NCBI GenBank assembly: GCA_019635485.1 | Contig: JAHBZL010000012.1 | Span: 1 to 64,000, forward strand | Length of the DNA: 64,000 nt | Direction of reading: 5' to 3' | Source of the DNA: Piscinibacter sp. | GTDB lineage: Bacteria; Pseudomonadota; Gammaproteobacteria; Burkholderiales; Burkholderiaceae_C | Shown here: positions 19,335-54,506 of the stretch, one piece after another | Layout: every line of letters begins with the position of its first letter | How positions within the stretch are numbered: position 1 is the first letter of the stretch | Notes under the pieces: generated by a model | The model's database searches: none | What the model was told of the DNA's origin: nothing | What the model saw: only the letters and a program-made list of their open reading frames with translations | Made by a program: the position numbers and the translations under genes

Positions 19335-20904
19335 CTTCCAGAGACTCGCCGACCGCTGCCAGCAGCAGCCGGTCGGCGGGTTCCTCCAGCTCGGCGAACG
19401 ACTCGCCAGTCGCTGAATCGCGGACCAGTCTGACGGGTCCCAGCAGATCTGCCAATACCCTCCTTGTGCGGGCCCGGTCGAGATCCTCGGCTAGCGCCTG
19501 CTGCAGCTGCATGATCTTCGCCCGGCAGCCGGCCACGGCCGCGTCGACCAGGTCGTCGACGGCCGGCGCGGCGGCCGCCTCGAGCAGGCGCTGAATCGCC
19601 GCCTGCTCGGCCTCGGCGGCCTGCAGACGCGTCGTCAGCGCCTGGCTGACCCCGACGCTGGCCAGCGCCTCCACCACCCGCCCGATCTCGCCCTCGAGCG
19701 CCTGCAGACGTCTGCGCAGGCCGTCGGCATCGGCATGCGTCTCCCGGCGCGCCTGGCGCAGCTGCTCGCGCACCTCGCGCTGCAGCCGGGCCAGCACGGT
19801 CGGCTCGAGCAGGCAGTCGCGCAGCTCGGCCACCAGGCGCTGGTCGACGCGATCGCGCGGGAAGGTGGCGCCGTTGGCGCAGACGGTGTTCCCGCGGTCC
19901 TTGTGGACGCTGCAGCCGTAGCGGGCCCGGTTGATGGCCACCACCGCGCCACCGCACGTCGGGCAGACCAGCAGGCCGCCGAACAGGGTCTTGGGGCTCG
20001 CGCCGGCGCCCTCGCGCTCGCGGCCGGGCGCCGGGCCGCGCCGCGCGCGGTTGTGCAGCCGGTCCCACAGGTCCTGGGGCACGATGCGCAGCTCCGGCTG
20101 CTCCCTCACCCGCCATTCGGCGGGTGGGCGCTCCACGTAGCGGCGCATGCCCGTCTCGGGGTCCTTCAACCACTGCCGGCGGTTCCAGATCACGCGGCCG
20201 ATGTACAGCTCGTTGTTCAGCATGCCGAGCCCGCGCGCGGCGCTGCCGAAGATGGCGCTGACGGCCCACGACCCGCCGCGCGGGCTCTTGATGCCGCGGG
20301 CGTTCAGCTCGTGGGCGATCCAGCGGACGCTGTGCCCGGCGGCCGCCGATTCGAAGATGAACCGCACGGTCGAGGCCTCGGCCTCGTCGACCACGAGCTG
20401 GCGGCCGCCGGCGACCTCGACGCTGCGGTAACCGTAGCTGCGGCCGCCGGCGCTCAACCCGCGCTCGAACTGGCCAGCCAGGCCGCGGTGCGTCTTGTCG
20501 CGCAGGTCGTCGAGGTACATCTCGTTGACCAGGCCGCGCGCCACGCGCATGACCTTGCGGCCCTTGGCCTGGGTGTCGTACCCGTCGCTGGTGCCGATGA
20601 GGCGGATGCCGCGGTACTCCAGGCGCTTGACCACCTGGTCCTGCTCGCCGACGTCGCGGCTCAAGCGGTCGAGGCCTTCGAGGATCAGCACGTCGAAGCG
20701 GCCGGCCAGCGCATCGGCCAGCAGCGCCTTGCCGCCACGGCGCAGGGCCACCGGCACCGAGCCGGAGATGGCCTCGTCCGACCGCTCGATCACCACCTCC
20801 CAGCCTTCCTTAGCCGCGCGATCGCGCGCGGCCCGCAGCTGGTCAACGATCGACGTCTGACGCTGCAGGTCGCTGCTGAATCGGGCGTAGAGGGCGACGC
20901 GCAT
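19291..20904 (-). CDS. int: large serine integrase
   Basis: 537 residues from ATG 20904. The N-terminal resolvase domain starts MRVALYARFSSD with the catalytic Ser near residue 10, then LEGLDRLSRDVGEQDQV. A recombinase domain follows, then a zinc ribbon (CPTCGGAVV...YGCSVH...C) and a long coiled coil (residues about 370-460). The last ten residues (AGFEPATFGL) are encoded by the antisense strand of the tRNA, left of the crossover, so they come from host DNA. In the excised form a different tail would be made. It directs integration into tRNA-fMet. Confidence 0.95.
   Translation of the reverse strand: MRVALYARFSSDLQRQTSIVDQLRAARDRAAKEGWEVVIERSDEAISGSVPVALRRGGKALLADALAGRFDVLILEGLDRLSRDVGEQDQVVKRLEYRGIRLIGTSDGYDTQAKGRKVMRVARGLVNEMYLDDLRDKTHRGLAGQFERGLSAGGRSYGYRSVEVAGGRQLVVDEAEASTVRFIFESAAAGHSVRWIAHELNARGIKSPRGGSWAVSAIFGSAARGLGMLNNELYIGRVIWNRRQWLKDPETGMRRYVERPPAEWRVREQPELRIVPQDLWDRLHNRARRGPAPGREREGAGASPKTLFGGLLVCPTCGGAVVAINRARYGCSVHKDRGNTVCANGATFPRDRVDQRLVAELRDCLLEPTVLARLQREVREQLRQARRETHADADGLRRRLQALEGEIGRVVEALASVGVSQALTTRLQAAEAEQAAIQRLLEAAAAPAVDDLVDAAVAGCRAKIMQLQQALAEDLDRARTRRVLADLLGPVRLVRDSATGESFAELEEPADRLLLAAVGESLEVVARAGFEPATFGL
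19323..19334. other. attL core
   Basis: CCCTCGCAACCA, the 3' end of the tRNA including CCA, is repeated exactly at 58031-58042. Bases on both sides differ between the two copies, so the identity is 12 bp. The crossover of the serine integrase lies within it. Confidence 0.85.
19704..19715. repeat. dispersed palindrome site 1
   Basis: GCAGACGTCTGC, the perfect 12-bp core of the dispersed motif, flanked by T and G. It lies inside the integrase coiled-coil coding region and is read in a different frame from most other copies. Confidence 0.7.
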
Positions 20905-21028
20905 GGGGTGGGGCGGATTCGGGCGGGATGATGGCACGCGCGGCCGCCTTGGCAAGCGTCTCGCGCACGATGGCGCCGGCCAGCAGCTGGATCAGCTGCT
21001 CGAGCGCGGCGTCGCGGGTGGTGCTCAA
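20843..21028 (-). CDS. small hypothetical prophage protein (61 aa)
   Basis: Starts at TTG 21028, which overlaps the stop of the preceding gene (TTGA). It encodes an Ala/Leu-rich helix (ALEQLIQLLAGAIVRETLAKAAARAI) and a basic Pro/Arg tail that overlaps the integrase start by 62 bp. It could couple integrase translation to the early operon. No family recognised. The overlap pattern supports it more than the sequence does. Confidence 0.5.
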   Translation of the reverse strand: MSTTRDAALEQLIQLLAGAIVRETLAKAAARAIIPPESAPPHARRPLRPIQQRPAASDVDR

Positions 21029-21294
21029 TTGAATTCCGTCTGATCGTCGGTGAACAGCGGCGCCCCACCCCGGCGCCGCTTCTCCTCGCGCAGCAGCTGC
21101 GCGTTGACGCGCAGTGAATCGAGCGCCGCGGCCGCGTTCGCCTCGGTGCAGCCTTGCTTGAGCAGCCAGGCGATCACGTTGATGGCACCTTGCTGTGCCA
21201 GCTCCTGGCCGACCAGCTGGCCGTCGCTCATGCGGCGGATCTCCGCGTTGAAGCGATCGCGGCTCGTGGGGCCGATGTTCTCGATGCGTGCCAT
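21025..21294 (-). CDS. hypothetical early protein (89 aa)
   Basis: Starts MARIENIGPTSRDRFN at ATG 21294, overlapping the preceding stop (ATGA). Predicted mostly helical, with a short hydrophobic segment GAINVIAWLLKQG; soluble. No domain recognised. It belongs to the coupled leftward early operon. Confidence 0.7.
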   Translation of the reverse strand: MARIENIGPTSRDRFNAEIRRMSDGQLVGQELAQQGAINVIAWLLKQGCTEANAAAALDSLRVNAQLLREEKRRRGGAPLFTDDQTEFN

Positions 21295-21536
21295 CAGAGC
21301 AGCCTCCCTTGCACGGGCGCCGGCGGGTGATTCGCCGCGATCCAGGCCTGGACGTCTCGGGCGGCCTCGAGGTACTCCCTCGAGGGCGTCTTCGTGACTT
21401 CCTGGCCAGGCACGTAGGTCGACCAGATGCGATCGCGCAGGTGCTTGGGCAGTTTGAACCAGCAGGCCTTGCAGCCCCACAGCTTCGGCGGCACGGCCTT
21501 GCCGCAGCCTGGCCAGTGGCAGGTGTGGCCGCTCAT
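21294..21536 (-). CDS. small Cys-rich zinc-finger-like early protein (80 aa)
   Basis: Begins MSGHTCHWPGCGKAVPP and has C-x4-C plus a later C-x2-C (WGCKACWFKLP), a likely zinc-binding knuckle. Small proteins of this kind are common in betaproteobacterial phage early regions. Both ends overlap neighbours by four bases. DNA or protein binding is plausible; the function is unknown. Confidence 0.72.
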   Translation of the reverse strand: MSGHTCHWPGCGKAVPPKLWGCKACWFKLPKHLRDRIWSTYVPGQEVTKTPSREYLEAARDVQAWIAANHPPAPVQGRLL

Positions 21537-53517: not shown

Positions 53518-53523
53518 ACTGCC

Positions 53524-54096
53524 ATGCACTCGCTGTCCTCCGCCGGCCTGGCCGTGCTGGCGTCCGGCCGTGCCGGGCTGATCCTGCTGCTCGAGATCCA
53601 GACCGACCCCATCGTGCGCCTGGTCAGCACGCCCTACCCCATCTTCTACGAGGGCGTGTGGTGGCAGGGCGCGCAGAAGCTCGGGACGATCGAGCAGGTC
53701 GAGGACAAGGTCGGCTCCTCGGGCGGTGCGGCGCTGCGCTTCACGCTGGCCGCGGTGGCCAGCGACGTGGTGGCGCTGGCCCTGCAGGACGAGGTGAAGT
53801 TCGCCCCGTGCACGCTGCGCGTGGGGGTGTTCGACGTCGCGGCCCGCGCCCTGCGCGACGTGGTGCAGATCTTCGCGGGGCAGATGGACCAGCTGCCGGT
53901 GGCCCTCTCGGCCGAGGCGGCGGCGATCTCGGCCACCGCGGTGCACCGCGGCGAGACCTTCGGCCGCCCGAAGCCCCTGCGCAACACCGACGTGGACCAG
54001 CAGAAGCTCGCGCCCGGCGACACCAGCCGGCGCTTCGTGGTGGCGCAGAGCCAGCAGCAGGACGTCTGGCCCGCCGCGTCGTTCTTCAAGAGGTGA
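53524..54096 (+). CDS. distal tail protein (190 aa), L-like
   Basis: Starts MHSLSSAGLAVLASGRAGLI. Contains IQTDPIVRLVSTPYPIFYEGVWWQG and a long beta-rich middle, fitting phage proteins that sit before the NlpC/P60 tail peptidase. The C-terminal SQQQDVWPAASFFKR is a common ending in this family. Confidence 0.72.
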   Translation: MHSLSSAGLAVLASGRAGLILLLEIQTDPIVRLVSTPYPIFYEGVWWQGAQKLGTIEQVEDKVGSSGGAALRFTLAAVASDVVALALQDEVKFAPCTLRVGVFDVAARALRDVVQIFAGQMDQLPVALSAEAAAISATAVHRGETFGRPKPLRNTDVDQQKLAPGDTSRRFVVAQSQQQDVWPAASFFKR

Positions 54097-54506
54097 ACCC
54101 CGTGCGCGTGCGCGACTGGCAATCCCGCCTGCAGGCGATCGTGTGCAGGCGTCTGCAGGCGCCCTTCGCCTGGGGCGTCAACGACTGCTGCCTGTTCGCG
54201 GCGGACTGCGTGCTCGCGGTGACGGGCCGCGACCCCGCCGAGGACCTGCGCGGCGCCTACGCCGACGAGCGCGGCGCCGCGCGGCTGCTGGCGGCCCACG
54301 GCGGCGTTGTCGAGCTGGCGATCGCCCGCCTGGGCCCGGTGGTGCCGGCCGCCCTGGCCCAGCCGGGCGACGTCGGCCTGGTGCGCTTCGACGGGCGCGA
54401 CACGCTCGCCGTGTGCATGGGCGCGCACTGGATGGCGCCGGGCGAGGCGGGGCTGGCCACCATCCTGCCCGGCCAGGTGCTGCGCGCCTGGCGCTGCGAG
54501 GCCTGA
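54093..54506 (+). CDS. tail-associated NlpC/P60-like protein (137 aa)
   Basis: GTG 54093 overlaps the preceding stop (GTGA). PFAWGVNDCCLFAADCVLAV provides the candidate catalytic Cys, and a later ACMGAHWM-like segment (VCMGAHWMAPG) provides the His, as in K-like tail peptidases. It may cut peptidoglycan during DNA entry or assemble the tip. Confidence 0.72.
   Translation: MNPVRVRDWQSRLQAIVCRRLQAPFAWGVNDCCLFAADCVLAVTGRDPAEDLRGAYADERGAARLLAAHGGVVELAIARLGPVVPAALAQPGDVGLVRFDGRDTLAVCMGAHWMAPGEAGLATILPGQVLRAWRCEA
54144..54157. repeat. dispersed palindrome site 11
   Basis: TGCAGGCGTCTGCA in the NlpC/P60-like gene, read as part of Val-Cys-Arg-Arg-Leu-Gln, a different frame from most copies. Confidence 0.7.

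Follow-up and report, generated by a model that had tools for sequence, protein, structure and literature searches.

The DNA sites of ParB-fold proteins have been described in several settings. Chromosomal ParABS systems combine a ParB protein, which displays ParB_N and HTH_ParB domains, with a 16-bp palindrome in or near parB (canonical parS, TGTTTCACGTGAAACA); in Bacillus subtilis a parS is also known inside the parB gene. Noc, a ParB relative encoded outside of parAB, has many scattered palindromes and acts on the host chromosome and on cell division. N15, RK2 and pSM19035 each have a ParA, and the operator sequence of KorB of RK2 differs from the palindrome described below. KorB is the closest precedent. 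Published accounts describe a ParB-fold, DNA-sliding CTPase with a 16-bp operator (OB) that acts from more than 1 kb away, with 12 sites scattered over a mobile element. Scattered ParB sites of a centromere-like type are also reported (PMC3235114) for N15, RK2, pSM19035 and pMF1, of which N15 and pMF1 are extrachromosomal (a phage-plasmid and a plasmid) and pMF1 has a ParA. The present analysis concerns a 64,000-nucleotide stretch of Piscinibacter sp. DNA (the window; positions 1 to 64,000 of contig JAHBZL010000012.1), which contains an integrated prophage of approximately 38.7 kb. The prophage encodes an orphan ParB of 593 amino acids (positions 22367–24148, minus strand) and carries a repeated palindrome. 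The palindromes very probably belong to ParB, and they are predicted, with a probability of roughly 0.78, to be parS-like sites at which the prophage's own putative ParB clamp recognizes DNA and is loaded.

The initial annotation of the window had reported about eleven repeats of a 14-bp palindrome across the prophage. This is borne out. The core GCAGRCGYCTGC occurs 11 times (19704, 23321, 26107, 30848, 35370, 37702, 42698, 45494, 47900, 51227 and 54145) and all of the copies are within the prophage. The positions first reported are correct to within one base, and the weaker copies reported at 34199 and 55673 are present. The 11 cores and the two weaker copies make up 13 sites, which span positions 19,702–55,687. 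When two mismatches or fewer are allowed, the 14-mer TGCAGRCGYCTGCA has 15 matches in the window (seven exact, six with one mismatch and two with two mismatches), compared with a chance mean of 2.61 and a maximum of 8 in 100 shuffles. The motif had been said to be absent from the host flanks, and the only TGCAGRCGYCTGCA matches there are two-mismatch ones at 3603 and 7093. Three properties go beyond the initial annotation: the full site is 16 bp in length, with the consensus GTGCA(G/C)ACGT(C/G)TGCAC, one copy is inside parB, and the sites are spaced more regularly than expected at random. The exact family 16-mer, a perfect palindrome, is found at positions 23319 and 37700.

A count of site symmetry was dropped because the symmetry is fixed by the way in which the sites were chosen; the site matrix from the viral loci described below is likewise symmetric by construction. 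In a ranking of palindromes within the single genome, the GCAGRCGYCTGC-type site is second among those of the window and the top position is occupied by a different, codon-like palindrome. Such a ranking is swamped by GC-rich and codon-like repeats and a pooled search was therefore used instead.

Confinement to the prophage extends to the whole host assembly (5.0 Mb, 81 contigs, 84% complete). The prophage contains all seven exact copies of TGCAGRCGYCTGCA and 13 of the 16 matches obtained when up to one mismatch is allowed (reversed control pattern, 2), and also nine out of nine matches to the family 16-mer GTGCASACGTSTGCAC with two mismatches or fewer (reversed control, 1). The remaining four of the 13 window sites have three mismatches to the family 16-mer. 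Site density in the prophage is about one per 3.4 kb and no equal density is found in the host. The palindrome contains common restriction palindromes, and a host methylation or restriction motif had been one of the options put forward initially. However the rest of the host assembly is empty of sites, and a restriction or methylation motif was rejected on this ground. The 16-mer moreover tracks a protein clade across many hosts, and a rare codon is used in parB to keep the site. Chance or coding bias was also rejected, since no enrichment is seen for scrambled palindromes of identical composition. A host motif of any such type, whether for restriction, methylation or uptake or arising from coding bias, is thus extremely improbable.

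The sites were reported to lie in three reading frames and on both strands, with one at a start codon, and this is the case; 11 of the 13 are intragenic, according to genes called by the analysis's own script. The site CTGCAGACGTCTGCGC (19702–19717) is within the integrase gene, and GTGCAGACGTCTGCAC (23319–23334) is within parB, over the codons of a zinc-ribbon motif. GTGCAGACGTCTGCAG (26105–26120) is close to the start of a leftward gene and GTGCAGACGCCTGCAC (30846–30861) is within a VapE-like gene. The weak site CTGCAGGCGTCCGCAC (34198–34213) is in a gene that matches Q-like antiterminators weakly. ACGCAGACGCCTGCAC (35368–35383) is 5′ of the terminase gene and outside of the called genes; a second copy of GTGCAGACGTCTGCAC (37700–37715) is at the 3′ end of the large terminase gene, in a variable linker. 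Further along are TCGCAGGCGTCTGCAC (42696–42711), GTGCAGACGCCTGCAA (45492–45507), which is within the major head protein gene, and CTGCAGGCGTCTGCAC (47898–47913), which abuts a start codon (ATG at 47914). GAGCAGGCGTCTGCAC (51225–51240) is within the tape-measure gene. It is followed by GTGCAGGCGTCTGCAG (54143–54158) and by the weak site GTGCAGGCGTCTACAG (55672–55687), which is within the tail-fibre gene.

The 11 core sites are spaced more evenly than random positions (coefficient of variation of the gaps 0.286, p ~1e-4), and so are the 13 sites (p = 3e-4). Evenness is also present when 15 elements are pooled (p = 2e-4) and when the window is removed from these, leaving 14 (p = 5e-4). The 15 elements are the window, entered with 13 sites including the weak ones, the phages Aval and VarioGold, a Comamonas element and a further 11 viral contigs, selected because each carries at least five sites; five site-less contigs, a Myxococcus plasmid and a Gordonia phage were left out. 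All were handled as circles and some may be fragments. Even and mostly intragenic spacing fits the loading of a sliding clamp over the whole element better than it fits control promoter by promoter.

The initial proposal of parS-like sites for the phage ParB-like protein is strongly supported by co-occurrence of site and protein in both search directions, together with the ParB tree. In one direction the protein was searched first. Eight distant relatives (L006–L013; 33–41% identity, other genera) were retrieved by protein only, and the few kb available for five of them (L008, L009, L011, L012 and L013) contain GTGCAGACGTCTGCAC or a version of it that is shorter or differs by one base. A viral set consists of the best 80 of at least 518 confirmed ParB relatives, again retrieved by protein only. 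With two mismatches or fewer, these 80 loci contain 128 sites, compared with a mean of 0.9 and a largest value of 10 for 300 scrambled palindromes. With parB left out, 45 of the loci still contain a total of 68 sites (mean 0.83 and largest value 10 for 300 scrambled palindromes). A de novo search of all perfect 16-bp palindromes with parB masked places GTGCAGACGTCTGCAC first in the viral set (68 sites, 0.68 expected). It is also at the top in 38 non-acidobacterial genome loci, with 31 sites in 17 of these and 0.29 expected.

Longer records display the same association. A set of 43 ParB-family records consists of the record of L021 and of every record in the set of 80 viral loci that reaches 36 kb (42 records). 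The 16-mer, with two mismatches or fewer, is present in 38 of the 43 and occurs twice or more in 30; the total is 157 sites vs. 14 for the reversed pattern. There are five sites in phage Aval, six in phage VarioGold and six in a Comamonas phage-like plasmid, 13 of these 17 being intragenic. Gordonia phage Nyceirae, which carries another ParB, has none. Conservation of site position in relatives, which had been raised initially, is found for a region and not codon by codon: in the terminase genes of four relatives a site (three mismatches or fewer) is near the 3′ end in three, in linkers that do not align. A site is located right after the major capsid gene in both VarioGold (L147, position 5756) and Aval (L146, position 20625).

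The site inside parB is itself conserved. It is present in 60 of the 80 viral loci, and in 59 of the 60 is at nucleotides 650–870 from the match start, where it covers codons of an ADVCTD-like motif in the zinc ribbon. Forty-four of the 87 genes of a first set bear the motif. Their Ala codon is GCA in 42 cases, vs. 16% in the same genes, and the two bases preceding it are GT in 37. The preference for GCA and GT argues that the parB DNA is held by selection and not by selection on the protein alone.

In the opposite direction the site was searched first. The exact 16-mer is present in at least 120 viral-contig stretches, compared with 5 for a single control palindrome matched in composition. 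The test set consists of the 73 distinct records behind 80 loci among the matches listed. A gene of the ParB family is found in 45 of the 73 records and in 36 of the 40 that are 30 kb or longer. As parB itself can hold a site, records whose sole listed exact copy is in parB were removed, after which the ParB family is found in 38 of 66 records and in 31 of the 35 of at least 30 kb. The 45 ParB-positive records have 47 exact copies outside of the parB match and 12 inside it; in three of the 45 the match covers no more than about the first 190 profile positions, and one of these three records is at least 30 kb in length. None of the five control-palindrome records has a ParB of the family.

The ParB tree is a quick one in which near-copies are present; it comprises 150 proteins out of 167, selected for a locus no shorter than 9 kb and a chain no shorter than 250 aa. 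Presence of a site outside of parB requires 20 changes on this tree compared with 50 in shuffles, and none of 500 shuffles is as low. One group of 36 rows, 32 of which are acidobacterial, has a single row with a site, a metagenome-assembled genome of Acetobacteraceae. The motif had been expected in relatives with the same ParB gene. Close relatives do carry it, but 42 acidobacterial ParB loci do not, and no enriched palindrome was found in these 42. A search for a replacement palindrome in the 42 loci, and also in 12 viral loci poor in the motif, gave no convincing candidate. Thus the palindrome belongs to part of the ParB family. In the recognition-helix region, rows with sites have Y at position 145 (60 of 70) and R at position 141 (55 of 70), and acidobacterial rows have A (21 of 30) and P (22 of 30) at these positions. 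A chromosomal ParB has A and R and the window ParB has Y and L. The site variant GTGCACACGTGTGCAC is found in some phages, and CTGCAGGCGCCTGCAG in the phage of L021.

Stoperators or operators of an immunity repressor, after the model of mycobacteriophage L5, had also been suggested for these sites, and dispersed repeats in a temperate phage are in keeping with that model. L5-type stoperators are asymmetric, set by the direction of transcription, and bound by the immunity repressor. The expected asymmetry is not displayed here: the shared 16-mer is a perfect palindrome, also in the at least 120 viral stretches, and the sites are mostly intragenic. The sites also follow the ParB clade across phages of many hosts. 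A repressor stoperator was rejected because the site follows ParB, and this explanation is very unlikely.

Several observations weigh against the assignment of the palindromes to ParB as loading sites. Taken singly, only five of the 15 elements have evenly spaced sites at p below 0.05. The copies in two of the five site-bearing distant relatives (L008 and L012) are inside parB. There is no site outside of parB in 35 of the 80 viral loci, nor in 63 of the 80 genome loci (42 of the 63 being acidobacterial), many of both being fragments. Five of the 43 long records are site-less and eight have a single site, often the one in parB; of the five, one has the variant CTGCAGGCGCCTGCAG and the other four have no convincing site. 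Other phages of the family have fewer sites than the prophage described here (0–8 across the 43 long records), and the rows are not independent, as near-copies occur. Three short terminase relatives (fragments of 14–22 kb) have sites with no ParB gene in the fragment.

The prophage ParB displays a ParB_N domain (CTPase fold), an HTH_ParB (helix-turn-helix) domain, a Cys4 zinc ribbon and a helical C-terminal part. The Pfam scores are 52.2 bits for ParB_N (PF02195, cut-off 26.3) and 42.5 bits for HTH_ParB (PF17762, cut-off 22.6); no other domains, including those specific to KorB, are reported by Pfam at E-values up to 0.05. With 88.9 bits against a cut-off of 58.45 the protein is a member of TIGR00180 (ParB/RepB/Spo0J). 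The highest-scoring NCBIfam model is that of Noc (TIGR04285), but the score of 103.4 bits is below the cut-off of 315 and does not make it a Noc. PRTRC ParB (TIGR03734) displays similarity over residues 17–300, into the zinc-ribbon region, again with a score (89.9 bits) below the cut-off for membership (278.6). Residues G69, R71, R72, E103, N104 and R107 of CTPase boxes II and III are invariant in 52 aligned proteins, and the Cys4 pattern after the HTH is present in all 87 first-set proteins and, in a slightly looser form, in 76 of the 80 of the genome set. The AlphaFold2 model of the 593 aa chain has a mean pLDDT of 85. In a fold search approximately 200 residues match ParB, Noc and KorB structures (E-values 1e-12 to 1e-8). 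TM-scores are up to ~0.65 by target length and the rmsd is often large, which is expected where domains are placed differently. Homology and fold thus suggest that the prophage ParB may bind CTP, close as a clamp and slide.

Judged by eye, the ParB C-termini of L147, L149, L008 and L006 appear to carry, past a variable region, one or two modules of a KOW/SH3-like type. The records G358, G391, G398, G402 and G403 have one TGA within the ParB match, perhaps an effect of the match end.

ParA (PF13614) is found in none of 46 family records by a search that does detect it in all 14 control genomes. There is none in the prophage either, and the six matches in the host genome are all off the prophage contig (C4). 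The ParA-binding motif (L/F/I)G(K/R)G(L/F/I) is absent from the first 60 residues, as delimited by script, of all 87 ParBs. No canonical parS (TGTTTCACGTGAAACA) is present in the window within three mismatches. The host has two parS-like copies, within two mismatches of TGTTTCACGTGAAACA, near its ParA gene, and a host ParB is nearby; as the host has its own ParA, ParB and parS-like sites, the host and prophage systems appear separate. An ordinary ParABS was rejected, since no ParA was found in the 46 records or in the prophage. Unlike chromosomal ParABS, the phage system has no detected ParA or ParA-binding motif, its sites are scattered over the whole element and the site sequence is different. 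RK2 also differs in that it is a plasmid with a ParA (IncC), and the phage ParB has a Cys4 zinc ribbon. Noc resembles the prophage ParB in being outside of parAB, but the sites here are confined to the prophage.

Partition could still be envisaged with the sites as a scattered centromere and ParA borrowed from the host, or with partition acting only in a transient extrachromosomal stage. The scattered centromere-like sites of N15, RK2, pSM19035 and pMF1 are in keeping with this, as is a Myxococcus plasmid, outside of the 46 records, which carries ParA beside a family ParB, with sites around both genes. Nevertheless the lack of ParA and of the ParA-binding motif, and an integrated state with integrase and att repeats, make partition improbable for the prophage. 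With no ParA and no ParA-binding motif, classical partition does not seem to be driven by this ParB.

In the 50 kb examined of the 64 kb Myxococcus plasmid there are 12 copies within three mismatches of CCGCAGACGTCTGCGG, and copies of this type are found immediately ahead of the family parB and in the interval that separates it from the neighbouring parA. The plasmid has three ParB-like genes, thus the assignment of site to ParB rests on position. The plasmid (L148, NZ_CP123279.1) also has 13 copies of ACCACCAGCTGGTGCT in two clusters at 21077–30928. The copies are ~190–220 or 450–485 bp apart within each cluster and perhaps represent a second centromere-like system.

Homology with ParB, Noc and KorB suggests that the palindrome would be recognized by the HTH domain of a ParB dimer. 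The site-bound protein would then take CTP and close as a clamp, and the closed clamp would slide away from the site along the DNA. Given a spacing of roughly 3.4 kb between the predicted loading sites, which include the one in parB, ParB could cover the phage genome and spare that of the host. It may serve as a phage-specific coat or mark on DNA in early lytic replication. The location of parB points in this direction. The gene is in a leftward block between the integrase gene and the regulatory region, together with a gene for an HD-domain protein (24692–25306, minus strand) similar to deoxyribonucleoside 5′-monophosphate (dNMP) phosphatases. In VarioGold parB is between the integrase and CI-like repressor genes, with dNMP kinase and SSB genes. 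A role in early lytic DNA metabolism, as coat or mark, is tentatively favoured over silencing or partition. A broader and somewhat more speculative form of this proposal is a ParA-free, CTP-driven phage chromatin in integrative temperate phages of many Pseudomonadota. Such phages would encode a zinc-ribbon ParB clamp and distribute its loading sites over their whole genome. The clamps might cover phage DNA alone while it replicates and label it as self, and might organize it, shield it from host factors or sort it for packaging.

A KorB-like long-range silencer is the strongest competitor of the early lytic role, although it is on balance unlikely. Clamps loaded at the dispersed sites in the lysogen would slide and act jointly with a small promoter-bound repressor to shut down phage genes. 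The properties of KorB given above, the presence of KorB structures among the fold matches and the mostly intragenic sites, as distal operators may be, are consistent with this. On the other hand, no KorB-specific Pfam domain is reported, and the dNMP phosphatase here and the dNMP kinase and SSB in the VarioGold block point to DNA metabolism. No site for a partner repressor was identified, though no search aimed at one was made. An anti-silencer similar to VirB, in which site-loaded ParB would strip xenogeneic silencers (H-NS-type proteins) off the phage DNA, is less probable still, slightly below partition. VirB is described as related to ParB, as having a CTP switch and as counteracting H-NS, but its sites are upstream of its promoters, whereas 11 of 13 sites here and 13 of 17 in three relatives are intragenic. 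The prophage is also hardly more AT-rich than its flanks (GC 0.701 vs. 0.721 and 0.736).

Orphan ParB-CTPase-fold proteins are found outside of parAB, some of them in prophages; they are common on mobile elements and the targets of many are unknown (Kaljevic et al. 2025, PMC12704722). The accessible part of that paper describes no DNA sites for the prophage orphans. No description of the present site was found in the literature searched, which was mostly without subscription papers. A ParB domain is mentioned in the VarioGold paper, which contains none of the terms palindrom, repeat and parS. The string GCAGACGTCTGC occurs in one paper, on DNA topology. A large group of ParBs of integrative phages without detectable ParA, together with its probable site, thus appears to be new. 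A widespread orphan ParB group is in this way matched to probable DNA sites from sequence alone, and named elements, including the mitomycin-induced phage VarioGold, allow direct testing. Should sliding clamps indeed be loaded over a whole phage genome without ParA, the ParB clamp would have gained a new use, and ParB with its 16-bp site could be employed as an orthogonal DNA-labelling pair.

The prophage carries head, tail and packaging genes. No related phages were found in a phage collection by a near-DNA search with 24.3 kb of the prophage as query. The element is bounded by a 12-bp direct repeat. The attL core, CCCTCGCAACCA (19323–19334, plus strand), is identical to the 3′ end of the tRNA-Met gene (19258–19334), and the attR core is at 58031–58042 (plus strand). 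The attL core adjoins the gene of a 537 aa serine integrase (19291–20904, minus strand; Pfam Resolvase, Recombinase and Zn_ribbon_recom); serine integrases more often use protein genes as targets.

A 72-bp direct repeat (94%) is present at 28849–28920 and 29266–29337, with a second pair of 29 bp nearby (28425 and 28920). The repeats at 28849–29337 are in a region poor in gene calls that divides the leftward from the rightward gene block, and both pairs are perhaps operators. The 703 aa gene at 45366–47477 combines a major head protein with a head maturation protease, as judged from PHROGs matches. In the host flank, a gene of the beta-lactamase family (PF00144) is located right past attR, at 58217–59452.

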